This document shows positions 7,074 to 57,344 of a DNA stretch of 64,000 bases, one piece after another. Within the stretch, counting starts at the first letter, position 1. Each line of letters opens with the position of its first letter. The notes under the pieces were generated by a model, which worked only from the letters and a program-made list of their open reading frames with translations, did not search any database and was not told the DNA's origin. Source of the stretch: Brachyspira intermedia PWS/A (GTDB lineage: Bacteria; Spirochaetota; Brachyspiria; Brachyspirales; Brachyspiraceae); assembly GCF_000223215.1 (NCBI RefSeq), contig NC_017243.1, forward strand, positions 3,038,001-3,102,000, given 5' to 3'. A program made the translations under genes and the position numbers.

Positions 7074-7194
7074 ATAAAAACTCTTAATGTTTTATATAAC
7101 TATTAAAACTTTAACTATTATATAAATATTTCTTATAAATTCAATGTACTATATAATACTTCCTTATACAAATTATGTTTTAAAACTTTATTTA

Positions 7195-7615
7195 CATACC
7201 ACGCCCTATAAAATTTAAAGCTTAATTATAAATTTAAGCTTCATTTATTTTGGTATTTAAATTGAAAAAGCATACCCACCCAATCGTTAATTAAATCGAA
7301 AATATATTTAACGCACGATTAACTGATTTATAAATATAATAAAAATTTTAATTGCAAATGATTCTATATTTTTAGCTTTGCTATAGAGGCGGTGAATAGA
7401 CTATAATTAAAAAAACTTGTGGGGCAGCTAAAATAATAGTTGATAAATATTGTAAAGCTAATTATAAAAATTGTGAGCCTCTGGCAAGTTTACTTTACAT
7501 AGCCTTTGCCGTAGCACGCATAGCAAACGAACAATTTTTATTAGCAATAATAAAAAATAATAATACAAAAATATCAGAAATAGCTGAAAGCCTAAAGTAC
7601 GGGCAAATGTAAATC
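7195..7615. repeat. Family A repeat, rearranged copy
   Basis: The modules are in a different phase. It starts with the right-half motifs (CACGCCCT near 7201, then CATACCCACCCAATC), continues with one arm (AACGCACGATTA to GAGGCGGTGAATAG), then left-half motifs (CTTGTGGGGCAGCTAAAA and GCCTAAAGTACGGGC). This is what recombination between two copies sharing one arm would leave. It lies between mcrB and the broken lipoprotein gene. Confidence 0.7.
7463..7543. repeat. Small insert bounded by inverted repeats inside family A
   Basis: TAAAAATTGT and ACAATTTTTA bound a GC-richer core of about 56 bp (7475-7530) that the other family A copies lack. It may be a tiny palindromic insertion. I do not recognise the core. 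Confidence 0.5.
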
Positions 7616-7621
7616 AAATTA

Positions 7622-8376
7622 TTATAAATACTTATCTACTAATTTTTGATAAGTGCCATTAGTCATTATTTCTTGAAGACCTTTGTTAATCTTATTAAGT
7701 AAAATAGTATCCTCTTTTCTTACAGCTATACCATATCCCATTTTTGGGAATTCTATAGTTTCAACTATTTCTAAATCTTTATCATATTGAAGATAGTTAA
7801 TACAAGTAAGTTTATCAACTACCATAGCATCTATTTTACCTGTTTTCAAAGACAGAAAAGCACTTCCGGCAATATCAAATCTTATCACTTGACGAACACC
7901 TTCTATTTTTGATGCTGTAATATCAGAAACAGTATTTTTTATAGCACCTATAGTTTTTCCTATCAAATCATTAGTTGTTATTATATTCGTATTTCCTTTA
8001 TTTACTACAATGCTTTGACCAGCTGTTAGATAGCTGTCAGAAAAATTCACAAGTTTTTCTCTATCTTCTGTTATTGTCATAGCAGCTATAATAATATCTA
8101 TACGTTTTTTATTAAGTGCCGAAATAAGATCATCAAACTGCATTGTAACAAATTGAATTTTTAAATCTGATACTTTAGCTACCTCTTTCATTAAATCATA
8201 ATCAAAACCGCCTATATCATCAGTATCTGAATGAGGCATAGGATAATCATAAATATATATACCTACTTTTAATGCTTCATTAGTTGCAATATTTTCTGAA
8301 TTATTTGTATTGGAATAATTACTACAGGCGGTAAAAGTTATTAAAGTAAATAGTAAAAAATAATAATCTTTTTCAT
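7622..8376 (-). pseudogene. Amino-acid ABC transporter solute-binding lipoprotein, frameshifted near the start
   Basis: The main frame (from 8239) encodes a bacterial family-3 solute-binding domain: GGFDYDLMKEVAK, then DIIIAAMTITEDREKLVNFS and a GYGIAVRKED segment. Upstream in the same frame is a lipoprotein signal (FLLFTLITFTAC followed by Ser-Asn) and the first strand EALKVGIYIYD, but no start codon. An ATG at 8376 is one base out of frame. Restoring one A to the five-A tract after it (8369-8373) gives MKKDYYFLLFTLITFTAC, a textbook lipoprotein start. The gene is therefore either broken, switched off by slippage, or affected by a sequencing error. No permease or ATPase gene is adjacent. Family A repeats flank it. 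Confidence 0.7.
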
Positions 8377-8474
8377 TTGTACAAAAATATTTTTAGATAT
8401 GCATTTAACAATAATGTATATCTGAAAAAAGTCAAGCAATTATTTTTATATAATAGATGTATAGTATTATAAAT

Positions 8475-8885
8475 AACGCACGGGGAGCTAATTTATAAAT
8501 ATAATAAAAATTTTAATTTCAAATAATTCTATATTTTTAGCTTTGCTTTGCGTGCGGAGTATAGACTTTAAATTTCAAAACTCTTGGGCGGGCAGCTAAA
8601 ATAACAGTTGATATTGTTAAAAAATAATTATTCAAAAATATCAGAATTAACTAAAATCCTAAAGGGCGGGCAAGTGTAATTAAATTTTAAAACTTATTTT
8701 AATTCCCCACCCTTAAAAATTTAAAACTATATTTTTAATTATAATATTGATTATATTTAAAATTTTAATTAGAAATTAAAGCACCCACCCAAGTGTTTTG
8801 TAATTTTTTGATTTATATTAACGCACGATTAAATTATTATGATATAGAATTTCAATTGAATTACTCATATAAATTACCGTGCGTT
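8475..8885. repeat. Family A nested palindrome, full copy
   Basis: Left arm AACGCACGG (8475) to GCGTGCGG, then CTTGGGCGGGCAGCTAAAAT, AAAGGGCGGGCAAGTGTAAT, axis, CCCACCCTT, GCACCCACCCAAG, and right arm AACGCACGA to ACCGTGCGTT (8876-8885). One of the best-preserved copies. Confidence 0.88.
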
Positions 8886-20767: not shown

Positions 20768-20796
20768 TTTTTAAAAATATAATTAGTTAATTAAGG

Positions 20797-20829
20797 CTAG
20801 GTTTTCTAAATGAAGCCTAGTCTTTTTAT
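20797..20829 (+). terminator. Terminator of the AGE epimerase gene
   Basis: CTAGGTTT (20797-20804) pairs with AAGCCTAG (20813-20820, one G-T pair), followed by TCTTTTTATT. Confidence 0.8.
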
Positions 20830-20853
20830 TTGCATGATTTTTTAATAAGTTTA

Positions 20854-20870
20854 GGGGGTGGGCGGGCGGG
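20854..20870 (+). other. G-quadruplex motif (copy 1)
   Basis: GGGGGTGGGCGGGCGGG has four runs of three or more G separated by single bases, the most stable class of G4 motif. It is striking in such AT-rich DNA. It sits 140 bp upstream of the TPR gene start. Confidence 0.8.
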
Positions 20871-21010
20871 CTAATAAAAACATTTAATTAAATAAAATTC
20901 ATAATTTCAATCATTACCTTATATACTAAAAATTTTTAAAAGTAATATTTATATTGTTTGATAAAATAAGTTTGCAGTTTATAATATATAAAAAATATTT
21001 GGATTATTTT

Positions 21011-23515
21011 ATGACAGATGCATTAAAATATAAAATAGAAAAATTAATATCATCAAAAAAAATAGAAGATGCTATAAAATTAGTTAATAGAGCTATAGAA
21101 GAATATAATAATGATGAGGATTTATATTTTAATAGAGGAAAGCTTTATTCAATTATTAATATGTATGATGAAGCTATAGAAGATTTTAATAAAGCTATAA
21201 AATTAAATCCAAATAATGAAAAGGCATACTTTAACAGAGGAATTACAAAAGTAAAATTAGAAAAATATGAAGAAGCCATAGAAGATTTTAATAAAATTAT
21301 AAAATTAAATCCTAAGAATGAAAGAGGATATTTTAATATAGGATTTGCAAAAGCATCTTTAGAAAAATATGAAGAAGCTATAAAAGATTTTAATGAAGTT
21401 ATAAAATTAAATACTAAAAATGAAGAAGCATATTTTTTTAGAGGACTTGCAAAAGTAAAATTAGAAAAAGATAAAGAAGCCATAGAAGATTTTAATAAAT
21501 CTATAAAATTAAATTCTAAAAATGAAGAAGCATATTTTAATAGAGGAATCGCAAAAACAAAATTGGAAATATATGAAGAGGCTATAAAAGATTTTAATGA
21601 AGTTATAAAATTAAATCCTAATAATGAAAAAGCATATTTAGCAAGAGGAATTGCAAAATCATATTTAGAAGAATATGAAGAGGCTATAAAAGATTTTAAT
21701 GAAGTTATAAAATTAAATCCTAATAATGAAAAAGCATATTTAGCAAGAGGAATTGCAAAAATAGAATCAGGAAAACATGAAGAAGTTATAGAAGATTTTA
21801 ATAAAGCTATAGAATTAAATCCCAATAATGAAAATGCATATTTCAATAGAGGAATTGCAAAAGCAAAATTAGAAAAATATGAAGAAGCTGTAGTAGATTT
21901 TAATAAAGCTATAAAGTTAAATAAAAACAATGAAAAAACATATTTTAGTAGAGGAATTACAAAAGTAAAATTAGAAAAATATGAAGAAGCTATAGAAGAT
22001 TTTAATAAGGCTATAGGACTAAATAAAAGTTATAATAAGGCATATTTTAATAGAGGAATCTTAAAAATAAATTTTGGAAAATATAAGGAAGCTATTAATG
22101 ATTTTAATAAGGCTATAGGACTAAATAAAAATTATAATAAGGCATATTTTAATAGAGGAATCTTAAAAACAAATTTTGGAAAATATAAGGAAGCTATTAA
22201 TGATTTTAAAATATTTTCTAAAGATAATAATGATACTTCCAAGATAATTATCATAAAAATAGTTCAGGAATTTGATAAGTATAATGATATTGATAAATTT
22301 TTTAAGCTATTAATTATGGATGAAAATAAAGAATTATGGAAAAATGAACCTATTACTAATTTAATTTTTCATTTTAAAGAGAGCAAAAAATTTGATGATG
22401 AACTTATAAAAAATATTAAATATTTAATTTTATATGAATATTTTTTACTTAAAATATTATCTTTCGATACTGATGATGAAAATATAGAAATATCTCATTA
22501 TACATCATTAGATCTTTTATTAATATTATTAGGGTGTAAAAATGAAAATTCAGATGAAATAGGGAATATAAGAATAAATAATATATCAACTGCTAATGAT
22601 CCTAAAGAAGGAAATATTTTAGAAAGTATTTTCAATAGGAATGATATAGATATAAAAATAGGAAGCGATGAAAAAATTGTAACATTGCAAACATCATATT
22701 CAAGAAACAGAGATTCTCTTACAATGTTTAGATTATATGGTAAAAGAGAAGATAAAGAAGCTACTGGTATATGTTTAGTTTTGGACAATAAATATTTTAC
22801 TGATTCATATACTTCTCCTTTTTCTTATTATGACTTTAATGTAAATAATATAAGTATTAAAAATGATGAATATTTTACTGATTCATATACTTCATCTTAT
22901 GATTCAAATGTAAGCAACATAAATATTGAATATAAGTCGAATATAAAAAAAGAAAAAGAAGAAAATAAAAGAAATTTATATTGGGTGCTTTATTATAATG
23001 AAAAATTAAATAAACTTGTTTTCAATAAAGAAGATTTAAAATATTCAAGTAATATTATAGATTTAAACGAAATAAAGAAGTATAGAAAAAAATTAAAAGA
23101 AGACGATACTATTGAAGATAAGATTAAATATGCATTTTCAAAAATATTTGAATATACTAGAAAAATTAAAGAGAAAAATATTGATCCTAAACTATATAAT
23201 TATTTATTTGAAAATATAAAATACATAATAAAGCATGAAGCATTTTTTGAAGAACAGGAATTAAGAATGCTTGTAACTTCTGATTATAAATCTAAAGAAA
23301 TAAAAGCAGATAAAATCAATAATAAACTTTATATAGATTATTTAAAACTTTTTGATCAAAACACAAATTATATAAAAGAAATTATAATAGGTTCTAAAGT
23401 TGAAAATAATGAATCGCTTGCTGAATATATAAGAAAAATTTTACATGAAAAAAATACTGATAAAAATAAATTAGATGATATAAAAGTTCTTATATCAGAA
23501 GCTCCTTTAAGATAA
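21011..23515 (+). CDS. TPR-repeat protein with a DUF2971-like C-terminal domain
   Basis: About 834 aa. Residues ~5-420 are 11-12 tandem 34-residue TPRs (consensus KYEEAIEDFNKAIKLNPNNE, then KAYFNRGIAK), a protein-binding superhelix. The C-terminal half holds a DUF2971-like region: ISHYTSLDLLLILLGC, then IRINNISTANDPKEG and RDSLTMFRLYG. The function of that family is unknown. A short internal duplication repeats YFTDSYTS about 25 residues apart. The start at 21011 (MTDALKYKIEK) follows the first likely TPR helix; the frame is open 57 nt upstream without a better signal. Several TPRs are almost identical at DNA level, so their number may vary. The gene is flanked by ~150-bp direct repeats, hinting at insertion or duplication as a unit. 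Confidence 0.82.
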   Translation: MTDALKYKIEKLISSKKIEDAIKLVNRAIEEYNNDEDLYFNRGKLYSIINMYDEAIEDFNKAIKLNPNNEKAYFNRGITKVKLEKYEEAIEDFNKIIKLNPKNERGYFNIGFAKASLEKYEEAIKDFNEVIKLNTKNEEAYFFRGLAKVKLEKDKEAIEDFNKSIKLNSKNEEAYFNRGIAKTKLEIYEEAIKDFNEVIKLNPNNEKAYLARGIAKSYLEEYEEAIKDFNEVIKLNPNNEKAYLARGIAKIESGKHEEVIEDFNKAIELNPNNENAYFNRGIAKAKLEKYEEAVVDFNKAIKLNKNNEKTYFSRGITKVKLEKYEEAIEDFNKAIGLNKSYNKAYFNRGILKINFGKYKEAINDFNKAIGLNKNYNKAYFNRGILKTNFGKYKEAINDFKIFSKDNNDTSKIIIIKIVQEFDKYNDIDKFFKLLIMDENKELWKNEPITNLIFHFKESKKFDDELIKNIKYLILYEYFLLKILSFDTDDENIEISHYTSLDLLLILLGCKNENSDEIGNIRINNISTANDPKEGNILESIFNRNDIDIKIGSDEKIVTLQTSYSRNRDSLTMFRLYGKREDKEATGICLVLDNKYFTDSYTSPFSYYDFNVNNISIKNDEYFTDSYTSSYDSNVSNINIEYKSNIKKEKEENKRNLYWVLYYNEKLNKLVFNKEDLKYSSNIIDLNEIKKYRKKLKEDDTIEDKIKYAFSKIFEYTRKIKEKNIDPKLYNYLFENIKYIIKHEAFFEEQELRMLVTSDYKSKEIKADKINNKLYIDYLKLFDQNTNYIKEIIIGSKVENNESLAEYIRKILHEKNTDKNKLDDIKVLISEAPLR

Positions 23516-23550
23516 TAATATTTAGTGCTTTTAATATTAGTTAATTAAGG

Positions 23551-23583
23551 CTAGGTTTTCTAAATGAAACCTAGTCTTTTTAT
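23551..23583 (+). terminator. Terminator of the TPR-DUF2971-like gene
   Basis: Perfect 8-bp stem CTAGGTTT / AAACCTAG with an 8-nt loop and a T-run. Confidence 0.82.
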
Positions 23584-23607
23584 TTGCATGATTTTTTAAT
23601 AAGTTTA

Positions 23608-23624
23608 GGGGGTGGGTGGGCGGG
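23608..23624 (+). other. G-quadruplex motif (copy 2)
   Basis: GGGGGTGGGTGGGCGGG: four G-runs with 1-nt loops. One loop base differs from copy 1 but every G-run is kept. Confidence 0.8.
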
Positions 23625-23791
23625 CTAATAAAAACATTTAATTAAATAAAATTTATAATTTTAATCATCACTTTATATACAAAAATATATTTGTAATTTA
23701 AATTACTATAGGTTAAAATTATTATAAAATTTTAATTTATATATAATTATACGATAATAAAAAGTACATTTTTAATTTTATAAGGAAATAT

Positions 23792-25904: not shown

Positions 25905-26810
25905 TTACTTTACAGAATTATATTTAAATCTTCTGTTTTCTGATATAACTCTGCCTATAGCATTCATTATTAACCCTATAGCAAAAGATAATGCGGATAA
26001 TATTAGTAAGCATATAGTTAGTATTGCTGTTGGAAATCTATCTACTTTTAATGTTTCAAAATATTCTATAGTTATGCTTATTCCTAAAGCCATACCAATA
26101 ATAAACAATATAATGCTTATTATATTAAAAAATATTATTGGTTTTTCTGTCATCATTAAATATATAATAGTAAATAATATTCTAAATCCATCTCTAAAAG
26201 TATTAAGTTTAGAATGTGAACCTTCAGGTCTTTTAAAATACTTAGCGGGAACTTCTCCTACAGACAAACGCATTTGCAGAGCATATATTGTAAGTTCTGT
26301 TTCTATTTCAAAACCTTTAGAAGCAGCAGGAAAACTTTTTACAAATCTTTTAGAAAATATTCTATATCCGCTTAACATATCATTAAATCTTTTTCCAAAT
26401 AATATATTTGCAAAACCTGTAAGCATAGCATTTCCAAAAGTATGTCCCTTTCTATGTACATCTTCATCTACTACTTCACGTGCAATGTTTAGCATATCAA
26501 GTTTTTTATCTAAAAAATACTCTATATGTTTTTTTATTTCAGATATATCGTACTGCATATCAGCATCAACCATTATATATATATCAGCATCAATATCAGA
26601 AAAAGCTCTTCTTACAACTTCTCCTTTTCCTTGATAATTAACCTCAGTAACTATAGTTCCAGCTTCTTTTGCTAATTTTACAGAATTATCTTTACTATTA
26701 TTGTCAAATACATTTATTTCAGCTTCAGGTAAATATTTTCTAAATTCTTCTATTACTTGTTTAATTGTTATTTCTTCATTATAGCATGGTATTATCACAG
26801 ATATTTTCAT
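25905..26810 (-). CDS. Family 2 glycosyltransferase with C-terminal membrane anchor
   Basis: The 301-aa protein has the GT-A start ISVIIPCYNEEITIKQVIEE, the acidic VDADMQYD (DxD-type nucleotide-sugar/metal site) and DMLSGYRIFSKRFVKSFP, like polyprenyl-phosphate mannosyl/glucosyltransferases. Two C-terminal membrane segments (IIFFNIISIILFIIGMALGI, then TICLLILSALSFAIGLIMNA) match the DPM1/ArnC type. It probably makes a lipid-linked sugar donor. Its ATG overlaps the stop of the upstream GT-C-like gene by 4 bp, so the two are translationally coupled, and the GT-C partner is the likely user of the donor. Confidence 0.88.
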   Translation of the reverse strand: MKISVIIPCYNEEITIKQVIEEFRKYLPEAEINVFDNNSKDNSVKLAKEAGTIVTEVNYQGKGEVVRRAFSDIDADIYIMVDADMQYDISEIKKHIEYFLDKKLDMLNIAREVVDEDVHRKGHTFGNAMLTGFANILFGKRFNDMLSGYRIFSKRFVKSFPAASKGFEIETELTIYALQMRLSVGEVPAKYFKRPEGSHSKLNTFRDGFRILFTIIYLMMTEKPIIFFNIISIILFIIGMALGISITIEYFETLKVDRFPTAILTICLLILSALSFAIGLIMNAIGRVISENRRFKYNSVK

Positions 26811-29371
26811 ATATTGCTATTACTCCTTAATTTTTTAATAAAAATTTTTAATCCTCCAATATCATATATAAAAGTAATGAATGATATTAAAGAAATAATA
26901 GAAATATGTACTACAGGACTTATATACCTATATAGAGGAGCAGGAGAAAATAAAAGAACTATTATACATGTGGCCGCTGATGAAAAAGATACCAAAAAAG
27001 AAAATATTAAAAAATTATTATTAAATTTAAACATACAAAATAATGATATAAAAAATAAAACAAAAGATAATATAACAAAAAATGATATATTTATATCAGG
27101 TAAATATCTATAGAAAAAAGAATATATTTTTTCTTTATTTTTATCAAATTGTATGTTTTTATTATGTATTGAATTATAATATTCATTTGACATAAATGGA
27201 AATTTATATGTTTGTTGTATGTATTCAGGATCAAATCTATAATTTAATTTTCTTAAAAATGTACTCCAATCTTCTGTAGTGAATATGTATTTTGCATAAT
27301 TATAAATATGTTTCATATAACTAATAGGGTGACTAATTATTGCTTTTACCCATACTTTTTTTATATTCTTTTTTATATTTGGATTAGGTGGTAATATTTT
27401 AAATGGGGCATTTCTATCAAAATTAACAGCATACAAATCAGCCAAAACGCTACCTCTTTCTGTATTATATATTTTTTTTACATCCTCAAAATTTCTTCCA
27501 TCTAAGTACCAATTTTTAGGAATTAGATTTGAATCATTTGAATCAACTGCACAAGCTGATATTTGTATTAAAAAAGTATGATAAGTAGCTGTTTTTGCCC
27601 TATCTTCATCTATAAAAAATAAAGGAAAAATTTTTACCATAATTATTAATGATATTCCTAATACAAACATTATTGAAATTATTGATAGTATAAACTTTTT
27701 TACATTATTTATCTTCTCTATATTAATAAATAGATATATAAATAATATAGGATATACTGTAACAATAAAATTATGTCTCCATAATAATGCTATTAATGCT
27801 ATAAATATAGATAATGCTTTTGTAAAAAATAATATTTTAGGATTTTTTATATTTCCTGTTATAGAATAGAAAATAATAGAAAGAGATAGCCATAAAATTA
27901 AAGTTGCCGTAAAATCTTTTTCAGAATTAATTTTAGTAAAAAAAATGTTTCCAAGAAAAGAAAGAAATATCAATAATATTACTAATTTATTTTTGAATTT
28001 TGTATAAAGTGAAACTATTATTAAATATAATCCAATGAACCATGATAAAATATTTATTAAAAATAGATAATATGTATCATATCCAAATATACTGTATAAT
28101 ATTCTTAATACTAAAGAAATAATTATAGGTCTCCAATTATCATAATTTTCTGTATATGCTCTCCATATAACCTCTGAGGTATCCCAGTATTGGTAATAAC
28201 CTGGAAAAAATAACCAATATATAAAATAGAATAGAAATATAAAAATCAATATTAATGAGAATAAAAAATAATAATCATTTTTTAACATATATACTATATT
28301 ATCTTCTTTTATAATTAATCCATTTATATTATTACTTTTGAATGATGTAATTGAACAATATACTTTAATTAAATAACATAGTATCAAAATAAAAAATATC
28401 AAGAATATAGCATATATAATATGACTTTTTATTTTTAAGGTATAAATAATATTATCAATCTTATTTTCATTTATTACTTTATCAGAGGCCAATATACCAA
28501 AAGGAGTGCCTATTGTATTATTCATATCTATTTTTTTTATGAATATATTATTATTAATAGATTTATTTGTATCGATGTAAACTTCATAAAAATCACTATT
28601 TTTAAATATTTTACTATAATATTTTATTTCAAAATTATAGCTATAGTTTGTAATTGAATCATTAGTATATATGTAATTTAGAAGCTCTTTATTATTTAAA
28701 GTATTTTTTAATGTAAATAATTTTTTTGTAGCATTTACATTAAAATTATTTATTTTTAATGTATTATCTATATTTAGATTCAAATCAGATAAATATCCTA
28801 TCCTATCATTCTTTCCTAAAATAAATAATAAAACAAATATGAATATAAATAATGGTACAGAAACTATTATAATTTTTTTAATGATATTTCTATAATTGAA
28901 GTTATTAAAATAATAGATTATTTTCATTATATTTTTATATATATTGAATGATTTTAAGTTACATATTATATATATGATAGATATACAAAATATCAGAAAA
29001 AATATTGGTTTTATTTGTAATTTATAATCGATATTATCAATTTTTTCATCAACATTTAATTTCTTTGCAGTTACCAAAGTACCGAATGGAGTTCCATTAT
29101 AATCATTCATATCTATTTTTTTTATATGTTTATTATTATTTAAAATACTTTGAATATTAGGATATACTCCATATATGTCATTATTCCTAAAAATTTTATT
29201 ATAATAATTTATTCTAAAAGCGTAAGTATATTTTCCTTCATTATGAGATTTCAAATTGAAGTCAGAAAAATATCCTTTTCTAGAAATATTTCCTAATACG
29301 ATTAAAAATAATATAAATATTAATAGAATTATACTAGTAGTTAATGAAATTTTCTTTAATTTATTTTTCAT
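26807..29371 (-). CDS. Large membrane protein, GT-C-like with duplicated N-terminal module
   Basis: About 854 aa with 11 or more membrane segments. The central part (PGYYQYWDTSEVIWRAY, then ENYDNWRPIIISLVLRILY) resembles DUF6020-type GT-C transferases, which use lipid-linked sugars in the periplasm; the acidic residues in that loop would be catalytic. The N-terminus holds two copies (about 1-125 and 175-345) of a module made of a membrane helix, GYFSD/GYLSD, an extracytoplasmic beta region ending NGTPFGTLV or IGTPFGILA, and another helix. The same module starts the sulfatase at 29613-32009. The start at 29371 follows GGGGT. A 7-bp tandem repeat lies 90 bp upstream. Confidence 0.75.
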   Translation of the reverse strand: MKNKLKKISLTTSIILLIFILFLIVLGNISRKGYFSDFNLKSHNEGKYTYAFRINYYNKIFRNNDIYGVYPNIQSILNNNKHIKKIDMNDYNGTPFGTLVTAKKLNVDEKIDNIDYKLQIKPIFFLIFCISIIYIICNLKSFNIYKNIMKIIYYFNNFNYRNIIKKIIIVSVPLFIFIFVLLFILGKNDRIGYLSDLNLNIDNTLKINNFNVNATKKLFTLKNTLNNKELLNYIYTNDSITNYSYNFEIKYYSKIFKNSDFYEVYIDTNKSINNNIFIKKIDMNNTIGTPFGILASDKVINENKIDNIIYTLKIKSHIIYAIFLIFFILILCYLIKVYCSITSFKSNNINGLIIKEDNIVYMLKNDYYFLFSLILIFIFLFYFIYWLFFPGYYQYWDTSEVIWRAYTENYDNWRPIIISLVLRILYSIFGYDTYYLFLINILSWFIGLYLIIVSLYTKFKNKLVILLIFLSFLGNIFFTKINSEKDFTATLILWLSLSIIFYSITGNIKNPKILFFTKALSIFIALIALLWRHNFIVTVYPILFIYLFINIEKINNVKKFILSIISIMFVLGISLIIMVKIFPLFFIDEDRAKTATYHTFLIQISACAVDSNDSNLIPKNWYLDGRNFEDVKKIYNTERGSVLADLYAVNFDRNAPFKILPPNPNIKKNIKKVWVKAIISHPISYMKHIYNYAKYIFTTEDWSTFLRKLNYRFDPEYIQQTYKFPFMSNEYYNSIHNKNIQFDKNKEKIYSFFYRYLPDINISFFVILSFVLFFISLFCMFKFNNNFLIFSFLVSFSSAATCIIVLLFSPAPLYRYISPVVHISIISLISFITFIYDIGGLKIFIKKLRSNSNI

Positions 29372-29460
29372 AACTACCCCATAATAATACAAGAATTGTA
29401 TTTTAATTGATAAATTTTTTTTGTATTTTTTTTAGAAATTATATTTATTAAAGAATAAAT

Positions 29461-29552
29461 GTTTGCTGTTTGCTGTTTGCTGTTTGCTGTTTGCTGTTTG
29501 CTGTTTGCTGTTTGCTGTTTGCTGTTTGCTGTTTGCTGTTTGCTGTTTGCTG
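29461..29552. repeat. Heptanucleotide tandem repeat (GTTTGCT)n, about 13 copies
   Basis: 92 bp of perfect 7-bp repeats in the 241-bp gap between the sulfatase stop and the GT-C-like start, 90-181 bp upstream of that start. A perfect array of this kind is prone to slippage and could tune expression of the gene downstream. Confidence 0.97.
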
Positions 29553-33172: not shown

Positions 33173-33262
33173 CAATAAACACCGTTTGGGGGAATTTTTT
33201 AAGTTCCCCCCACTAAAATATTATTATCAATTAAAGCCTATTAACAATACATTAATTCTTTT

Positions 33263-33945
33263 AACGCACGGTAAGCAAAATTTCTAATATAATAGAATTT
33301 ATATTTCAAATTAATTTTATATATTTATACCCATTTGGCGTGCGGTGAGAATACAATAAATTTTAAAAAATTCTTGGGTGGGCAGCTATAATAACTGAAC
33401 AAATTAATAAGACAAATGAAATTTAAATACCAGAAAAAACTATACCCTAAAGGGTGGGCAACTGTAATTCAATTCTAAAATTTTTATTATATACCCAGCC
33501 CTTTATTTTTTATAACTATATTTTAATTTTAGTTTTTTCAATTTTATTGTTTGTTGTGGATTTGCCCCCACACCCCCACTTCTTTTGCGACCGAAGGAAG
33601 TGCCTGTGGTATTACCACAAAGAAGCAGGCACAGCCCGCCTGTGGCGAAAGGCTACATTTGGGCTTTAATTTAACAAATTATCTTACATGTAAGACAATT
33701 TTAGTATTATTTAGTACTAATTTTTTACACTTGCACTTTTTGGTTCTTTTTGCGGCGGGAAAAAGAACAACCAAAAATTGAGAAACTTAAAAATTTTTAG
33801 TATAACTTATCTAGAAATTTTAGCACCCGCCCAAGTGTTGATTAAGTTTATAATTTATTTAACGCACGGTGAGTAAAATTTATATAATACAATAAGATTT
33901 GAATTATAGATAAAATTATATTTTAGGCTTTATTTAGCGTGCTGT
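33263..33945. repeat. Family A nested palindrome, split by a family B copy
   Basis: All A modules are present in order: AACGCACGG (33263), GCGTGCGGT, CTTGGGTGGGCAGC, AAAGGGTGGGCAACTGTAAT, CCAGCCCTT, then (after ~270 bp of family B) GCACCCGCCCAAG, AACGCACGG and GCGTGCTGT (33937-33945). Without the insert the copy would be about 410 bp, the normal length. No gene lies in this 790-bp gap. Confidence 0.88.
33535..33806. mobile_element. Family B element nested in family A
   Basis: Shares with the other B copies CCCCACTTCTTTTG, the GGCTACATTTGGGCTTTAAT segment, AGTATTATTTAGTACTAAT, the hairpin GTTCTTTTT-GCGGCGGG-AAAAAGAAC (33743-33768) and the end AAACTTAAAAATTTTTAGTATA. It interrupts a family A copy between its C2 and C1 motifs, so it arrived after A. 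Edges are accurate to about 10 bp. No transposase is encoded. Confidence 0.82.
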
Positions 33946-35758: not shown

Positions 35759-38242
35759 TTATAGTATATCTAATACTTTACCGGCCTTTTTTAATACATT
35801 TTTAGCGGCCTTTTTAACCTTCTTATTTTTAACTTCTAAATATATTTTATTTATTAATGATAATGCAAAGCTGCTTCCATTCAAAGCCATAGCATATACT
35901 GCATAAGCTGCTAATTCTTCACTATCATTCATATCACTTGAAGCCCAATCTTCAATTTGTATCTTTAATTGTAAGAGTTTATCTTCAGTCTGGAAAATAC
36001 AATATGGAATAAGTATGTTTTTTAATTTTATATCATATGTTGTATAAGATATATTAGTAGTCTCCGACGGTAATTGTAATAGTTTATCTTCAGTTAAATT
36101 ATTATATTGAATAAATATATTTTTGATTTCTGTATTTGATTTATTTTTAATCCAATTTGTATATATATTATTAAGTGCATTTCTAAATGAATCAATATCA
36201 AAAAACTCTGCTATTTTGTTGCAGTCTTTTAGTATAGAAGGTTCTTTTAATGCAGCATATTCCATAAATACATACTTAACTATTTTTAATGGAGATACAG
36301 TTTTCTTGTCTTTTAAGAGAATATTAGAAAGTATATTTTCGTCTATATCTTTTATTAAAATTTCATGTTCTTTATTATACTGTTTATTTACATATTCTTC
36401 TATTTCATCAATATTTTTGAATTTGAAATCAGCATCAATTTTTTGTAAGTCCCAATATTTAATTATTTCTTGATAAATTTTTATTGATGATTTTTTTCCT
36501 TCAACTGCTAATTTTTCTACTTCGCTTCTTATAGAAATTCCGTAATTCTTTATTATTAATATGCAGTGATTTTGTATTCTTTGATCTCTTTCTGTATCAA
36601 GAACTTTGAAAACAAAATCAAATTTATTATCTATTAAACTCCTTAATTCATCACTAAAAATAGCATTAATAAATGATATAGTACATTTAGTATTTTCTGT
36701 TATAGAGTTTATGAATGCTTCTTCTTTTATAATATTTTTTGTTTCTTCTAAATTGTTTTTTATAAGAGTTATAATATCATCTTCCGACTTTATAAATAAA
36801 TATATATCTTTTAATTGTACCTCTTTCTCATTAACCAATTTTTCTTTAATTTCTAAAATATTTTTATTATAGAATATTTTCTGAATATAAATATAAATTT
36901 TGATGTATATTCTATAATACTTTAATAATATATCCGTAATTTTTGATGCTTCATCATTTATTTCATCAAATAACATTATAGCTGATAAATAAGCACTATA
37001 ACTGCCATTAGGCTTTTCTTTTATATATTTAATACTTTTGGAAATTATATCATCAAAACTTTTAATAGATTCTCTTTTCTTTAAGAACTCTAAAGATATT
37101 TCTTTTAACTTTTCTATAATAGAATTAGCATTTATATTATATTTATTATCATTTACTGCAAGCATAATTGCTGAAAGCACAACATAATCAAGATATAAAC
37201 ATTCTAATTTTGATTTTTCTATTATCTCATAAAGTTTATAGAATGTTGTTTTGTCTTCAATATATAGTTTTTTTAATTCCACTGTTAAAGATGAAGTACA
37301 ATGGGTATTTCCGCCGCAATATATTTTGTTTAAGAAAATATATTCTTTAGGGAAAGAGCATATTTCTAAATATTCATCTGCAACTTCTCTTGCTTCAAAA
37401 TAATGATATGTTGGATCTTCTGAATATTTTTTAAAGAATCTTTTACATAATTCTATATTAGTTATCATTACAGAATCTAAATTTACAATAAAATATATTA
37501 TGTTATTATCTTTATTTAAAATATTTATTAATCTTTTATAAACTTCTTCATCTTTATCAACTATAGTAAAAAGTAATGATATAGTTTCTTCATCATTTAT
37601 TTTTAGCAAGTCTATATAATTTAATAATTGTTTAATGAGGCTTTTATCATCATCTCTATTTATGATATATACCAAAATAGTTAATAATAAATGAGGCTCT
37701 TTTTCTAATAATACTTTACTATCATTTTTTACTTTTTCTAAATATTCATTAAACTCTTTACCTATATAATTTTCTAATATTAAAAACCTATTAAAATTCT
37801 TATTTTGTATTTTTATGTATTCATATCCTTTATTATTTTTTAACTGAGATTTAGAATATTTTTTATCATCTATATATATTTCTTCAATATCAATATTATA
37901 ACTTTCTATTAAAACTTTTTCTAAATCTTCCCCAGAGCATAATCTTACAATCATATAAGTAGTAATTATTATATAATTAGGATTAGGATTACCTTTGTAT
38001 ATATCTTTAATTATTACTTTGGCATACCTAGACAGTACTTCTTTATCTCCTTTTGAAGTATTTTCATCAAAATAAAATTTGAAAATTTCTTCTGCATAAT
38101 AAAGATAATTTTTACTTAAAGTAGGACAGCTATTTGATTTTCCGTAAAAATAATCAAGGAATGCATCCTTATTATTTTCATGAGAAAACATTTCTTCAAA
38201 CTTATTTCTTATTTTTTCTTCATTACTAATACTATTTTTCAT
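35759..38242 (-). CDS. Large HEAT-like protein, paralogue lacking the DUF4132 end
   Basis: About 827 aa. It is homologous along its length to residues ~1-780 of the protein at 38901-42227 (shared NEEKIRNKFE...LDYFYGKSNSCPTL, DDDKSLIKQLLNYIDLLKIN, KIVKYVFMEYAALKEPSILK) but ends at KNVLKKAGKVLDIL, just where the DUF4132 domain begins in the longer protein. The body is helical, HEAT/ARM-like. It has an extra ~30-residue insert near residue 735. The start at 38242 follows AGGTTGG; an in-frame start 30 nt upstream lacks a signal. It may be a regulatory or competing partner of the full-length paralogue (inference). Confidence 0.75.
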   Translation of the reverse strand: MKNSISNEEKIRNKFEEMFSHENNKDAFLDYFYGKSNSCPTLSKNYLYYAEEIFKFYFDENTSKGDKEVLSRYAKVIIKDIYKGNPNPNYIIITTYMIVRLCSGEDLEKVLIESYNIDIEEIYIDDKKYSKSQLKNNKGYEYIKIQNKNFNRFLILENYIGKEFNEYLEKVKNDSKVLLEKEPHLLLTILVYIINRDDDKSLIKQLLNYIDLLKINDEETISLLFTIVDKDEEVYKRLINILNKDNNIIYFIVNLDSVMITNIELCKRFFKKYSEDPTYHYFEAREVADEYLEICSFPKEYIFLNKIYCGGNTHCTSSLTVELKKLYIEDKTTFYKLYEIIEKSKLECLYLDYVVLSAIMLAVNDNKYNINANSIIEKLKEISLEFLKKRESIKSFDDIISKSIKYIKEKPNGSYSAYLSAIMLFDEINDEASKITDILLKYYRIYIKIYIYIQKIFYNKNILEIKEKLVNEKEVQLKDIYLFIKSEDDIITLIKNNLEETKNIIKEEAFINSITENTKCTISFINAIFSDELRSLIDNKFDFVFKVLDTERDQRIQNHCILIIKNYGISIRSEVEKLAVEGKKSSIKIYQEIIKYWDLQKIDADFKFKNIDEIEEYVNKQYNKEHEILIKDIDENILSNILLKDKKTVSPLKIVKYVFMEYAALKEPSILKDCNKIAEFFDIDSFRNALNNIYTNWIKNKSNTEIKNIFIQYNNLTEDKLLQLPSETTNISYTTYDIKLKNILIPYCIFQTEDKLLQLKIQIEDWASSDMNDSEELAAYAVYAMALNGSSFALSLINKIYLEVKNKKVKKAAKNVLKKAGKVLDIL

Positions 38243-38459
38243 AAAAACCAACCTATTAACAATATTTTTCATGTAGTATAATTATTTTTTTTATTCTGTC
38301 AAATTTTATTATTATGTTTGTTTACTGTAATATTAAATAATTGATATAAATTGTTTTTAAGATATGCATAATATCTTTATATATAATTTTTTATTGTATC
38401 ACAAGTTAAAGTGTTATTATATTAAAAATTTATTTAACGCACGCTGAGTAAATTTAGTA

Positions 38460-38778
38460 TATACCTAAACAACTATACTCTGTCAAAAAATAAAATTATA
38501 TTTTCTTTTTTATATCTGGGGCTTTGCTGCGAAGCACACAGTCGTGCCATACCCCACTTCTTTTGTTGCCACAGGCGAAGCCCGCCTACAGCGAGAAGCA
38601 AAAAGGCTACATTTGGGCTTTAATTTAATAAATTATATTACAGGCAAGATAATTTTAGTATTATTTAGTACTAATTCTATCCTTGCATTTTTTGGTTCTT
38701 TGACGCTGTCCGCCTTTGGCGTGCGGCGGGAAAAAGAACAACAAAAAAATTGGCAAACTTAAAAATTGTTAGTATATA
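38460..38778. mobile_element. Family B element, full copy
   Basis: Starts TATACCTAAACAACTATACT, ends ATTGTTAGTATATA. The hairpin arm GGTTCTTT is separated from AAAAAGAAC by a longer GC-rich loop (GACGCTGTCCGCC, GGCGTGCGGCGGG) than in the nested copy. A fragment of a family A arm (AACGCACGC) lies just before it near 38436. Confidence 0.8.
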
Positions 38779-38900: not shown

Positions 38901-41900
38901 TTACTTCATAAAATAAGATTTTACTGTTCCGTATATTGATGAAGTAAATCTTTTGTTAATGTCTAAAGGATTTATATATTCTTCTGCATTGCAGTTTCCG
39001 TTTTCATCTAGCCTGTGGAAAGCAATATTTTTAAATGTTACTTTTTCGTTAGCCTCTATTCCAAACCACATATATTCAAAATCTATACGGCATGCAATAT
39101 TTAATATAGAGTCTTTTAATTCATAATAAGTATAGCTTCCGCCGTCTTCAATATCTCTGCTTCTTTCAAATGACATTTTATTTGCCATTGACATTATTTC
39201 GCCTGCTGTTATTTCCTGATCTTCAAAGGAAATGATTTTGTTGTTTTTTATATGCTCTTCTTTTACTTCTTCAAATAATAAGTCAAGCTGATTTATAGGC
39301 TGTGATATTTCGTAGTCGCTTAATTGAGTTTTCCATTTTGATAATTGTTCTTCGTCTAATTCTATAGGGTGAACTAAAGTAATATTCTTTTTGTTTTTAA
39401 GACTGTCTTCAAATATATATTCTTCTTCATCAAAAGTGTTGAAAGAACCGTCTTCCATGTATCTAAAACTTTCTATCAAATTATTCTTTTCATCATAAAC
39501 GCCCCATATAAGTTTTAAAGCAAATATATTCATTATAGGGTTTTCTACAAAAAGCTCAGTAAAAGTTTTATAAGACCATTTTCTTCCGTTTAATAAAACT
39601 TTATTTAATCTTGTTATTTGATTAGAAGTTATCATTTTTATATTTTTCTTTATCAAAGTTAATTCTTTTTTAGATGCATCTGCAGTTTCTTTATCGTCTT
39701 TGCTGTTTGGTGCAGGAAGTGATTTTAAAACTTTGTCATTTGAATCTGTTACTTCGATAGTGAAATCATTTTTTATTTGAAGTTTAAATACTCTGTTTGC
39801 TTCTCCTCCATAATGAAGTTCTCTCATTCCTTTTTTATCAAAGTCCAAATCTGGAATTATTTTGTCTATTAGTTCATCTTCTGAAATCTCTAATGCTTTT
39901 GCAGTCTTTTTTAATGCATCTTTAGCAGCATTTTTTACTTGATTATTTTTAATTTTTACAGACATTGTATCAACTAAAACCAATGCAAATTTGCTTGCAT
40001 TTAATGCTATAGCATATACTGCATGAGCGGCTAATGCTCCTCTTGCATTCAATGCCCATTCTTCAATTTGTGTTTTTAATTTTAATAGTTTATCTTCAGG
40101 CTGGAAAATACAATATGGAATAAGTATATTTTTTAATTTTGTATCTGCTTTGTTGTTGAGCCAATTTGTATATATATTATCAAGTGCATTTCTAAATGAA
40201 TCAATATCAAAGAACTCTGCTATCTTGTTGCAGTCTTTTAATATAGAAGGTTCTTTTAATGCAACATATTCCATAAACACATACTGAACTATTTTTAAAG
40301 GTGCTTTAGTTTTCTTGTCTTTTAATAAAATATTAGAAAGTATATTTTCGTCTATATCTTTTATTAAACTTTCATGTCCTTCATTATAGTATTTATTTAA
40401 ATATTCGTTTATTTCGTCAACACTTGTAAATTGGAAATCATCATCAAACTTTTGTAAGTCCCAATATTTAATTATTTCTTTATAAACTGTTCTTGATGCT
40501 TCTTTTCCTTCATTCGCTAATTTTTCTACTTTGCTTCTTACAATGCTTTCATTATTACTGATTACTGATACACAATGCTTTTTTATTTCTTTTGATTTTG
40601 CTGTATCAAGAACTTTGAAAACAAAATCAAATTTATTATCAATTAAACCGCTTAATTCATCACTGAAAATACAATTAATAAATGATATAGTACCGCTAAT
40701 ATTTGCTGTTATAGAAGTGATAAACGATTTTTCTTCCATAATAGATTTTGTTTCTTCAACATTATTTTTTATAAGTGTGATAATATTATCTTTTGAATCT
40801 AATAATGATAAATAAATATCTTTTAATGGTACTTTTTTATCATTAACTAATTTTTCTTTAGCTTCCAAAATATTTCTATTATAGAATATTTTCTGAATAG
40901 AAACATAAATTGAAATTTTGCCGTATATTCCGTAATGCTTTAATAATTTAGTAGTAATTTCTGATGCTTCATCATTTATACCGTCAAAGGACATTATAGC
41001 TGATAAATAATGACTATGATTAGTGTAAGGTTCTTCTTTTACATATTTAAAGCTTTTAGAAGTTATTTCATCAAAACTTTGAATAGGCTGCATTATCTTT
41101 AATAGCTCAACGCACATTGTTTTGAGAGTTTCTACAATAGAATTAGTATCGATATTATATTTGTTATCACCGCTTGCAAGCATAATTGATGAAAGCATAG
41201 CATAATCAAGATATAAATTTTCCAATTTTGATTTTTCTATTATCTCATAAAGCTTATAAAAAGTTTCTTTGTCTTCATCATATAATTTTTTTGCTTCTAC
41301 TGTTAAATATGAAATAAAAAGAGTGTTATTATTAACTATTGTGTTTAACAAAATACATTCTTTAGGGAAATTGCATAGTTCTAAATATTCAGGTATAAGT
41401 TTTTGTGTGTAGTAATAATAGCCTTTATCCTCTGAATATCCTTTAAATAATCTTTTATATAGTTTTATAGTTCTTGTCATATCTTTGTATATATTCACAA
41501 GAAAATAAATCATATTATTATCTTTATTTAAAATATTCATTAATCTTTTATAAACTTCTTCATCTTTATCAACTATAGTAAAAAGTAATGATATAGTTTC
41601 TTCATAATTGATTTTTAGTAAGTCTATATAATTTAATAATTGTTTTATGAGGCTTTTATCATCATCTCTATTTATGAGGTATACTAAAATAGTTAATAAT
41701 AAACGAGGTTCTTTATTCAATAATGCTTTATTGTCATTTTTTACTTTTTCTAAGTATTGATTAAAGTCTTTATACACATAGGCTTCTAATTCTGAAAACT
41801 TATAAAAATTATTTACTTGTATTTGTATATATTTAGATGCTTCATTATTAAGCAAAGTTGCTTTAGAATATTTTTTATCATATATAGTTCTTTCATACGT

Positions 41901-42227
41901 ATTATTATAACTTTCTATTAATGCTTTTTCTAAATCTTCACCAGTGGATAATCTCAAAATTATATGAACATTTTGGTTTTTGTATATATCTTTTATTATA
42001 GCTTCAGCGTATCTTGACAGTGCTTTTTTATCTTCTTCTTTAGTATTTTCATCAAAATAAAACTTAAAAATATCTTCAGCTTCATAACCATAATAATTTC
42101 TTAAAGTAGGGCAGCTGTTTGATCTTCCGTAAAAATAATCAAGGAATGCATTCTTATTGTTTTCGTATTGGAATATTCTTTCAAACTTATTTCTTATTTG
42201 TTCTTCATTACTGATATTATTCTCCAT
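38901..42227 (-). CDS. HEAT-like protein with C-terminal DUF4132 domain
   Basis: The 1108-aa protein has an N-terminal ~790-residue helical region and a C-terminal DUF4132 domain (~830-1020): LNGRKWSYKTFTELFVENPI, then ALKLIWGVYDEKNNLIESFR, ITLVHPIELDEEQLSKWKTQ and YEISQPINQLDLLF. DUF4132 occurs in MolR/WGR-type proteins and in gene sets with MoxR ATPases and von Willebrand proteins; its biochemistry is not settled. No MoxR or vWA gene is present here. GAGGTGA precedes the ATG, a strong signal. The truncated paralogue and two DUF2262 genes lie downstream, and a membrane coiled-coil/TPR protein upstream. Confidence 0.85.
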   Translation of the reverse strand: MENNISNEEQIRNKFERIFQYENNKNAFLDYFYGRSNSCPTLRNYYGYEAEDIFKFYFDENTKEEDKKALSRYAEAIIKDIYKNQNVHIILRLSTGEDLEKALIESYNNTYERTIYDKKYSKATLLNNEASKYIQIQVNNFYKFSELEAYVYKDFNQYLEKVKNDNKALLNKEPRLLLTILVYLINRDDDKSLIKQLLNYIDLLKINYEETISLLFTIVDKDEEVYKRLMNILNKDNNMIYFLVNIYKDMTRTIKLYKRLFKGYSEDKGYYYYTQKLIPEYLELCNFPKECILLNTIVNNNTLFISYLTVEAKKLYDEDKETFYKLYEIIEKSKLENLYLDYAMLSSIMLASGDNKYNIDTNSIVETLKTMCVELLKIMQPIQSFDEITSKSFKYVKEEPYTNHSHYLSAIMSFDGINDEASEITTKLLKHYGIYGKISIYVSIQKIFYNRNILEAKEKLVNDKKVPLKDIYLSLLDSKDNIITLIKNNVEETKSIMEEKSFITSITANISGTISFINCIFSDELSGLIDNKFDFVFKVLDTAKSKEIKKHCVSVISNNESIVRSKVEKLANEGKEASRTVYKEIIKYWDLQKFDDDFQFTSVDEINEYLNKYYNEGHESLIKDIDENILSNILLKDKKTKAPLKIVQYVFMEYVALKEPSILKDCNKIAEFFDIDSFRNALDNIYTNWLNNKADTKLKNILIPYCIFQPEDKLLKLKTQIEEWALNARGALAAHAVYAIALNASKFALVLVDTMSVKIKNNQVKNAAKDALKKTAKALEISEDELIDKIIPDLDFDKKGMRELHYGGEANRVFKLQIKNDFTIEVTDSNDKVLKSLPAPNSKDDKETADASKKELTLIKKNIKMITSNQITRLNKVLLNGRKWSYKTFTELFVENPIMNIFALKLIWGVYDEKNNLIESFRYMEDGSFNTFDEEEYIFEDSLKNKKNITLVHPIELDEEQLSKWKTQLSDYEISQPINQLDLLFEEVKEEHIKNNKIISFEDQEITAGEIMSMANKMSFERSRDIEDGGSYTYYELKDSILNIACRIDFEYMWFGIEANEKVTFKNIAFHRLDENGNCNAEEYINPLDINKRFTSSIYGTVKSYFMK

Positions 42228-42283: not shown

Positions 42284-42409
42284 AACTGCGAGCTGTTATC
42301 GTAGGTATGCTTCGCAGCAAAGCCCTGCAAATATTTTAAATTAAAAAAATTATTTTGGCAAAATATAATTGTTTAGGTATATACTGAAAATTTTTAAATT
42401 TTCAGTATA
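42284..42409. mobile_element. Truncated family B copy ending in a perfect palindrome
   Basis: Carries the B segments GCTTCGCAGCAAAGCCCTGC and AATTGTTTAGGTATA in reverse. It ends with a 30-bp perfect palindrome, TATACTGAAAATTT-TT-AAATTTTCAGTATA (42380-42409), which is two B ends joined tail to tail. The palindrome also lies 17 bp past the stop of the coiled-coil/TPR gene and may serve as its terminator. Confidence 0.7.
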
Positions 42410-44116: not shown

Positions 44117-44398
44117 TATACTGAAAATTTTTAAGTTTGTCAATGTTTTTGTTGTTCTTTTTCCCGCCGCACGCCACAGGCGGACTTCGTCAAGAACCAA
44201 AAAGTGCAAATGTTAAATTATTACTAAATCATACTAAATTTGTCTTACAGGTAAGATAATTTACTACATTTAAGTTCAAATGTAGCCTTTTTGCTTCTCG
44301 CCGTAAGTGTACTTCGTATGTGGCAACAAAAGAAGTGGGGGCTAGTCCCCACAAATAATAAAATAATTTTTGGCAAAATATCATTGTTTAGGTATATA
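44117..44398. mobile_element. Family B element, inverted copy
   Basis: Reverse orientation relative to the copies at 33535 and 38460. It begins TATACTGAAAATTTTTAAG, has GTTCTTTTTCCCGCCGC, then GTAGCCTTTTTGCTTCTC and CAAAAGAAGTGGGGGCTAG, and ends ATTGTTTAGGTATATA. It is the first part of a ~1-kb gene-free gap that also holds a family A copy. Confidence 0.8.
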
Positions 44399-44471
44399 TT
44401 ATATAACTAAATGAAAAAATATAAACAATATTTAGTTCATGATTTAGTTTGATAATGTTTATTCTATACTA

Positions 44472-44894
44472 ACCGCACGGAGAACAAAGCTATAAATATA
44501 ATTTGATTGTCATTTATAATTTTTCTATATTTAAAATTTGGTTTAGCGTGCGTTAGATAAATTCTAAATTTAATTAATGCTTGGGCGGGTGCTGAAATTT
44601 ATAAGTAAGCTATAAAGATAGTTAATATTAAAATTCAAAAATTAGTTATAAAGTATAAAGGGCGGGGAATGTAATAAAGTTTTAAAATTTAATTACACTG
44701 CCCCACCCTCTAGGCTTTTTATTTTTTCTGCTATTTAAATGTCATTTTTCTTTTTGATTTGTTCAGTTATTATAGCTACCCACCCAAGATTTTTTAAATT
44801 TATAGTATACTCACCGCACGAAAAACAATTATAAAAAATACAGTTTAATAAAGTAATACAATTTAATTATATTTACAATCTCTTTACCGTGCGT
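44472..44894. repeat. Family A nested palindrome, full copy
   Basis: ACCGCACGG (44472) to GCGTGCGTT, GCTTGGGCGGGTGC, AAAGGGCGGGGAATGTAAT, axis, GCCCCACCCTCTAGGC, GCTACCCACCCAAG, ACCGCACG to ACCGTGCGT (44886-44894). It lies upstream of ligA; another full copy lies downstream. Confidence 0.88.
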
Positions 44895-47154: not shown

Positions 47155-47269
47155 ATTATATCCTAATTTATCACACTTTAATAGTTAAAACTGTATATGC
47201 AAAATTATATTTTTATTTTAATATAAGAAGTATGTCTGATAAAGTTTTTATTATATTTCAAATCTATTT

Positions 47270-47696
47270 AACGCACGGTTAGCTAAATTTATTATGAAAT
47301 TTAAATGTTATTATTAATTGACTTATATTTATAATTTTACTCTTTGTGCGGTTAATAGATTATAAATTTAAATAAACTAGGGCGGGTACTAAAAAATTCT
47401 TAATTAAACCAAAAAAGAAATTAAAACAAAATTAAAAAGTAAATCAATAAAAATAAAGGGTGGGGTATGTAATAAAAGTTTTAAAATTTAATTACACTTG
47501 CCCACCCTTTAGGCTTATAGTCTTTTATGATATTTAAATTTTATTTTTCTTGTTAATTTGTTCTGGTATTATAGCTTCCCACCCAAGAATTTTTTAAATT
47601 TATTGTATTCTCAGCGCACGTTGAATTGGTATAAATATATAAATTAATTTGAAATATAGACTTTATTATATTTTGAAATTTTACTTACCGTGCGTT
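47270..47696. repeat. Family A nested palindrome, full copy
   Basis: AACGCACGG (47270) to TTGTGCGGTTAATAG, CTAGGGCGGGTAC, AAAGGGTGGGGTATGTAAT, axis, CTTGCCCACCCTTTAGGC, GCTTCCCACCCAAG, AGCGCACGT to ACCGTGCGTT (47687-47696). Confidence 0.88.
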
Positions 47697-47725
47697 AATA
47701 AAAATTGTTATTGGAATTAAATAAA

Positions 47726-48877: not shown

Positions 48878-49209
48878 TATACTGAAACAAATATATTTTG
48901 TCAAAAATTATTTTATTATTTTTATTATTTGTTGGGACTAGCCCCCCGCTGTGCGTGCCTTCGGCAACCCACACTTCTTTTGTTGCCACAGGCGAAGCCC
49001 GCCTACGGCGAGAAGCAAAAAGGCTACATTTTGGCTTTAATTTTATGAATTACCTTACATTTAGGATAATTTTAGTATGATTTAGTATTAATTTTATACT
49101 TGCACTTTCGCAAAGCGTGCCGACGAAGTCCACCTATGATGTCGGCAGCAACTTTTTGCGGCGGGAAAAGTTGAATAAAAAATTGACAAACTTAAAAATT
49201 TTCAGTATA
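48878..49209. mobile_element. Family B element, full copy
   Basis: Begins TATACTGAAACAAATATATT, ends AAATTTTCAGTATA (inverted ends). Its hairpin stem is CAACTTTT (49149-49156) / AAAAGTTG (49166-49173) around GCGGCGGG-like loop bases, whereas the copy at 33535 has GTTCTTTTT / AAAAAGAAC at the same place. Confidence 0.82.
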
Positions 49210-54688: not shown

Positions 54689-54849
54689 AAAATATTTCCT
54701 TGCAATAGATACTTTCTGATTATAACAGAATTATAAAAAATAATTTCCTATGTCTTCCGAAAGACAGTATTAATTTTTGTAATTTTTTTGAAAAATACGA
54801 ATTTTTATAACTAAAATATATTAATACAGTATACATATTAATATTATAT

Positions 54850-55277
54850 AACGCACGGTAAATAGACAATATAATAATATAAATTTAATTTTTTATTTTC
54901 ACTGTATAATTATACATTTTTTATCGTGCGGTAAGCTAACTATAAAATTAAAAAAATCTTGGGCGGGTGCTATATCAACTAATTTAAATAAAAAGAAAAA
55001 TAAAAGCAAAAATGAATAATTAAGCAGAAAGTATAAAGGGCGGGCAAGTGTAATTAAATTTTAAAACTTTATTTACATACCCCACCCTATAGATTTTCTG
55101 CTTTATTATAAATTTATAATATCATTTATCTTACCGCTTAATACATAAAATATGGCTGCCAACCCAAGTTGTTATTGGATTTAAAATCTATTCAACGCAC
55201 GGTCAATCAACTATTCTTTATAATTAAAATTTTATTATTTAACTTATTTATATTTTTTATTTAGCTTAGCGTGCGTG
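54850..55277. repeat. Family A nested palindrome, full copy
   Basis: The clearest example of the mirror layout: left arm AACGCACGG (54850) to CGTGCGGT (54932), GGGCGGG at 54961, GGGCGGG at 55038, axis near 55062, CCCACCC at 55081, CCAACCC at 55159, right arm AACGCACGG (55194) to GCGTGCGTG (55277). G1 and C1 lie ~98 and ~100 bp from the axis, G2 and C2 ~21 and ~22 bp. Confidence 0.9.
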
Positions 55278-56769: not shown

Positions 56770-57344
56770 ATTTAGCTTAAATTTAAAAACTTTCATTTAA
56801 TCCCCGCCCTTTTATCTTTATTGCTATTTTATGAATTTCAATATTAATCATCTTTATAGTTTAATTAGAATTTTTAGCACCCGCCCAAACTTTATTTAAA
56901 AAATTGAATTTCTTTAACGCACGGTTAGTAAAATTTAAAAATATAATAAAATCTGCATTTCAAATAAATTTATATTTTTAGTTTCGCTCTGCGTGCGTGT
57001 AAATAAGCAGCAAATTTAAAAAAATTTTGGGTGGGTTACTATAATTACAGTGAAAACTAAAAAGAAAAATTATACAAAAATAACAGTTAATAATTAAAAG
57101 CCTAAAGGGTGGGAAGTGAGAATAATTTTTAAAAACTTATTTTCATTCCCCGCCCTTTATTCTTTATTACTAAATTTATAATTTTAGTATTAATTATCTT
57201 TATAGTTTAATTAGAATTTTTAGCACCCACCCAAGCGTTTTTTAAATTTAGAATATATGCACCGCACGGATAACGCATTTTTATTTATTATTTTAATTAG
57301 AGTAAAAAATAAGCGTAAGTTTAAAACTTTATTCTGCGTGCGTT
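56770..57344. repeat. Family A half copy followed by a full copy
   Basis: First a right half (CCCCGCCCTTTT at 56802, GCACCCGCCCAA near 56878), then a full copy: AACGCACGG (56916) to CTGCGTGCGTG, TTTGGGTGGG, AAAGGGTGGG, axis, CCCCGCCCTTT, GCACCCACCCAAG, ACCGCACGG to GCGTGCGTT (57336-57344). The two right halves share long stretches such as TTTATAGTTTAATTAGAATT, so this is a partial tandem duplication. Confidence 0.88.

Follow-up and report, generated by a model that had tools for sequence, protein, structure and literature searches.

RUP, the pneumococcal repeat unit matched with IS630-Spn1, is described as a non-coding, intergenic element of 107 bp and simple structure, present in about 100 copies, which targets TA and has ends matching those of an IS630-family element (PMC2229807, PMC3049150). 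Nezha MITEs of cyanobacteria are proposed to be mobilised by a host insertion sequence (ISNpu3-like) through common ends (PMC3049150), and the Correia or NEMIS elements of Neisseria have a terminal TA, a duplication and inverted repeats (PMC2229807, PMC3049150), the passages on them in these papers giving repeats of 24-26 bp, with an IHF site in some forms, and naming no matching IS. A modular interior is known from BOX of Streptococcus pneumoniae, which is built from boxA, boxB and boxC and measures 67-637 bp (PMC3049150).

Here we describe a repeat family of Brachyspira intermedia PWS/A, starting from a stretch of 64,000 nucleotides (hereafter the window) in which an earlier note had picked out four copies of a MITE-like element, termed family B. 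The family resembles RUP in lacking coding capacity, in copy number, in its intergenic position and TA target and in its IS630-matching ends; however, its members are about 220-480 bp long and mosaic, carry GC-rich hairpin modules and form head-to-tail arrays that share a TA. By this analogy it belongs with IS630-mobilised MITEs such as RUP, while host and length keep it apart from RUP proper. Nezha, which has other hosts, is comparable by description only, and BOX as described is linked to ISSpn2 rather than IS630, its modules being repeated units and not alternative hairpins.

Family B copies, their ends and their empty sites

Copies 1 to 4 of family B are all present in the window sequence and, from the gene positions, all intergenic. 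Copy 4 is a 328 bp element on the plus strand (48880..49207; TACTGAAACA...TTTTCAGTA), with limits taken from an empty site in a close relative together with exact search, and it is flanked by TA at 48878..48879 and at 49208..49209. Exact search placed copy 2 at 38462..38774 (plus strand) and copy 3 at 44119..44394 (minus strand), each with TA on both sides, a GTTC/GAAC stem and, in the loop, an additional GC-rich insert of 21 nt. The common ends claimed for all four copies were thus recovered in copies 2 to 4, but copy 1 (33535..33802, plus strand, exact search), which has the GTTC/GAAC stem with a short loop, retains its right end only. Copies 2 and 3 have TACCTAAACAA as their left end whereas copy 4 has TACTGAAACAA, and the right ends of all the window copies are of the TTTTYAGTA type (TTGTTAGTA in copy 2). 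No ORF of more than 60 aa overlaps copy 4, in line with the claim that no copy encodes a transposase.

In a consensus over 165 copies the left end is TATACYTAAACAA...TTTTGTCAA and the right end TTGACAAACTTAAAAATTTTYAGTATA; this assigns 48880..48907 (TACTGAAA...TTTTGTCAAAAA) and 49178..49207 (AATTGACAAACTTAAAAATTTTCAGTA), both on the plus strand, as the terminal repeats of copy 4. The terminal inverted repeats are imperfect (TACYKAAA...TTTGTCAA / TTGACAAA...TTTYAGTA) and the two ends unequal (TACYTAAACAA versus TACTGAAAA).

A genome-wide search of B. intermedia PWS/A with the right-end pattern gave 139 matches at up to two mismatches, compared with one for the reversed control, and 152 compared with nine at up to three, so that the family comprises about 140-150 right ends. 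With copy 4 as query, 85 similar pieces were found in its own genome, many of them full length and with E down to 1e-86. Members are nevertheless variable, and most have no partner at more than 85% identity; the copies compared were sampled from fetched loci, rather than every genomic copy being inspected individually. The family is multi-copy, and its members are shorter than 600 bp and without a transposase gene, as is usual for MITEs. Across Brachyspira the number of right ends per species ranges from about 0 to 249, the highest count being that of genome G014. When 84,980 species genomes were scanned for the right end, at least 80 stretches were returned, and among the matches listed 80 of 80 were from Brachyspira.

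In a close relative (locus L105, NZ_CALXYQ010000086.1; flanks 96% identical) copy 4 is absent from its site, which reads TTTTTTATATAAACTAAA. The occupied site reads TTTTTTATATA[TACTG..CAGTA]TAAACTAAA, or TTTTTTATA-TA-[TACTG...CAGTA]-TA-AACTAAA in the window, and the two differ by the element plus one TA, a single TA at the empty site standing against one on each side of the copy. A search of the genus with the joined flanking sequences of ten other copies gave, for three of these (L009, L022 and L024), empty sites with a single TA in 4, 3 and 8 relative loci, respectively, some of which carry a few flanking indels. Solitary copies are bordered by TA at either end. From the empty sites in relatives, at four loci with copy 4 included, we conclude that insertion is precise with a 2-bp TA duplication; the description of the element as MITE-like, with defined ends, is borne out by them. 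A 4-bp TATA duplication at the window copy was considered and ruled out, as it would require two more bases than the empty site has.

Many copies abut with one TA in common, and junctions between abutting copies (at L194, L081, L094 and other loci) are head-to-tail in 84 cases compared with roughly 20-25 inverted ones. Insertion into the palindromic junction CAGTATATACTG would give abutting copies, although it leaves the head-to-tail excess without explanation, since no orientation bias is predicted for plain insertion at a palindromic TA. A 30-nt palindrome that consists of two right ends with nothing between them (TATACTGAAAATTTAAAAATTTTCAGTATA; 42380..42409, minus strand) adjoins a truncated family copy reaching to about 42290, the two having a TATA in common; this stretch (42290-42409) is absent from the earlier list.

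Several further repeats lie in the window. A second intergenic family, with AACGCACGG and ACCCRCCCAAG motifs, is present in direct and inverted copies at 7171-8758, 33260-33868, 44448-44812, 47242-47720, 54847-55216 and 56782-57288, and one of its units (about 33466-33535) sits in place of the left end of MITE copy 1. MITE copy 2 lies between two large ORFs of the minus strand (35759-38272 and 38901-42227), neighbours that have stretches in common with 77-89% identity. The 7-bp unit TGTTTGC is repeated in 13.3 perfect copies at 29460-29552, and this tandem array, which lies 68 bp upstream of an ORF on the minus strand (26807-29392), is a candidate phase-variable promoter region. Finally, ORF 20954-23515 contains ten tandem repeats of 102 bp (34 aa) at 21164-22209 and lies between the two copies of a 150-bp direct repeat (20782-20931 and 23536-23685; 95% identity).

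An IS630-family relic with matching ends

In B. intermedia we found neither an IS630-type DDE_3 domain nor any relative of the transposase N-terminus, and hence no cognate in the same genome. The partner that the earlier note had envisaged, a transposase gene with matching terminal repeats, was instead found as a relic in one of 26 Brachyspira genomes, that of Brachyspira sp. G79. The decayed gene is of the DDE_3 type and IS630 family: PF13358 (DDE_3) is above its curated cut-off in the relic, and the C-terminal piece matches the NCBIfam IS630 model (NF033545) at 9.7e-8, which is below the whole-protein cut-off, and Pfam DDE_3 at 6e-7. The element is 1058 bp overall and runs from the 5' end (TATACTGAAAATTTTTAAGTTTATCAA) through the gene start and IS630-like motifs with stops and frameshifts to the 3' end (TATACCTAAACAACTA, reverse complement). 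Its 5' end is the right end of the MITE and its 3' end is the MITE left end, in the TACCTAAACAAC form of the latter. Decayed IS630 elements in this genome lie at 758-1815 of L200 and at 1501-2100 of L238, the second of which joins what remains of the gene to a family-B MITE body.

Both ends are therefore shared in the G79 relic, and the 5' end is shared in genomes G014, G023 and G024. Over about 33 nt the MITE right end is the same as the IS630 5' end of G014, and it is nearly identical to that of G023 and of G015. IS 5' ends with gene starts, 97-100% identical, number more than ten each in G014 and G024, with one in G023, and many of those in G014 and G024 stop exactly at a contig edge (base 1 or the last base of the contig), as would be expected when a multi-copy element breaks a short-read assembly. 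MAG contigs ending in the common IS630 5' region include L247-L249 and L253, along with further contig edges of G014 and G024. The gene starts suggest that these relatives probably carry a multi-copy autonomous IS630 and that the partner is still intact there; it is probably this autonomous element itself that breaks the G014 and G024 assemblies, and its copies in these species would run from TACTGAAAATTTTTAAG to GTTGTTTAGGTA, about 1.06 kb. Among spirochaetes, relatives of the transposase have open frames of about 350 aa; matches on plasmids were distant only and annotated as IS630 transposase, and viral contigs gave no relative.

Taken together, sequence comparison gives defined ends, a TA duplication, empty sites, no coding capacity and an IS630-family element with both MITE ends, and we regard it as highly probable that the family is a non-coding MITE mobilised by an IS630-family transposase. 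Some observations fit this less well: the ends differ from each other, most abutting copies lie head-to-tail, a few hairpins have mixed arms (see below), and Brachyspira yielded a decayed gene and gene starts but no intact full-length transposase. An IS630 transposase matching the ends would have done the moving, in trans, and the copies in B. intermedia would now be stranded, the species having kept no gene for such a transposase.

Covarying hairpins in a modular interior

The MITE interior, which is not derived from the IS, is a mosaic of GC-rich hairpin modules in which a change in one arm of a stem goes with a change in the other, and the same ends enclose several bodies: family B, one with a ...AAAAAGTAGATAA... 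ending, one bearing AATAATAAGTAATCAGCCGCACG and one resembling an inverted family B. Short GC-rich hairpin modules appear and disappear at fixed sites within family B. On the plus strand of copy 4, sequence reading gives a left GC-rich hairpin with arms CTTCT / AGAAG (48974..49015), which is paired in the minus-strand RNA fold, and a GC-rich module with the stem TGCCGAC / GTCGGCA (49118..49147), at a site that holds a variable module in other copies; next to these lies the right hairpin, CAAC-TTTTT-GCGGCGGG-AAAA-GTTG (49149..49173), the covarying stem recognised from the sequence and from pair counts. The idea that the GC-rich modules are independent mobile repeats was rejected for now, as 87 of the 88 module clusters are found no more than 450 nt from the end of an element, in loci fetched around elements and so biased toward this result.

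The stems GTTC..GAAC and CAAC..GTTG with a GCGGCGGG loop are as had been described, and a third class, CTAC..GTAG, was seen outside the window copies. Both arms could be assigned to a class in 118 hairpins; the arms are matched in 110 of these (CAAC/GTTG 57, GTTC/GAAC 42, CTAC/GTAG 11) and mixed in eight, while a null in which arms were dealt out within loop types gave a mean of 50 matched. The same loop inserts are found in all three stem classes, with the arms still matched. Among 34 distinct short-loop sequences, 97.7% of cells are paired compared with 83.7% in shuffles, and 36 cells are double changes compared with 14.8; none of 500 shuffles reached either value, although these counts are not probabilities because the shuffles ignore relatedness. 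Slid controls brought pairing down to 58-71%. In a tree built from the left part of the element, about five of six supported independent contrasts show a joint change of the two arms (median p 0.06). We conclude that the hairpin covariation is real. The earlier suggestion of a required structure goes a step further and is supported only in part, and on these data selection on the fold is inseparable from template-switch correction or block exchange.

On balance we lean towards the covariation being a by-product of template switching at the palindrome or of exchange of 30-60 nt blocks, with the fold itself functionless; this concerns the hairpin alone and is compatible with the IS630-MITE explanation. 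It can be seen that the stem classes shift as multi-base blocks (CAAC/GTTG to GTTC/GAAC) and not by single compensated pairs, that mixed-arm intermediates exist but are rare, and that modules recur inverted at the left hairpin, as foldback synthesis would yield. The pairing exceptions show no strand bias, G-U and A-C being equal at 3:3 and 2:2. Block-wise stem change, rare mixed forms and the lack of wobble bias fit correction or exchange at least as well as RNA selection. Against this, a nested mini-stem covaries between GAC-GAA-GTC and GGC-GAA-GCC, and such a single-pair change resembles ordinary compensation and keeps selection in play.

Selection for a functional structured nucleic acid (RNA, single-stranded DNA or a cruciform), for which the transposon ends would be a mere vehicle, seems to us unlikely. 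It would account for covariation far in excess of that in shuffles and slid controls, for the matched arms around common loop inserts, for the nested mini-stem, for the joint changes on the tree and for folds better than shuffles (z-scores of -4.2 and -3.1 for the two RNA strands and -3.8 for DNA). MITEs commonly fold better than shuffled sequences (PMC3049150). RNA function was also sought through a strand bias in wobble pairs, and there was none, numbers being small. Also against such a structure, Rfam gave no match to the element (at 30000-60000 of the window it gave one tRNA and two sub-threshold matches, none in the element), the copies are variable, and several same-end subfamilies have no covarying hairpin. 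The related proposal that the interior consists of combinatorial GC-rich hairpin cassettes, swapped at fixed sites and kept paired by selection on a DNA foldback or RNA fold, in a host whose intergenic DNA is otherwise poor in G+C, is similarly doubtful.

Elements of the IS200/IS605 type make no target duplication. Movement as single-stranded DNA through hairpins, in the manner of IS200/IS605 or REP/RAYT, would suit the conserved subterminal hairpins but is very improbable given the inverted ends, the 2-bp TA duplication and the IS630 element with matching ends, and is contradicted by the empty sites. Chance likeness of AT-rich intergenic DNA, conceivable in a window with only 25% G+C, is refuted by the excess of end matches over the reversed control and by the full-length alignments within the genome.

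We favour an IS630-mobilised MITE, the interior of which would be foldback DNA whose pairing is maintained by template-switch correction and by the swapping of entire hairpins among copies, selection on the hairpin fold being an added, unproven possibility. The type of element is ordinary, its interior unusual and unusually modular.

Significance for Brachyspira

The literature searched, from which subscription journals are mostly absent, contained no description of this family and no paper combining Brachyspira and IS630, and term searches of the B. intermedia genome paper (PMC3163572) gave no occurrence of 'transposase' and one of 'repeat', in an unrelated context. This is apparently an undescribed high-copy family, for which the likely transposase can now be named as IS630. 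Brachyspira, intestinal spirochaetes of pigs, poultry and people, thereby gain a high-copy repeat family together with its likely transposase, of use in genome annotation, in strain typing and in explaining broken assemblies. The three-way covariation of stems around common loops is a natural experiment on function versus template-switch repair in mobile DNA, a question that also bears on the use of covariation as evidence for structured RNA.
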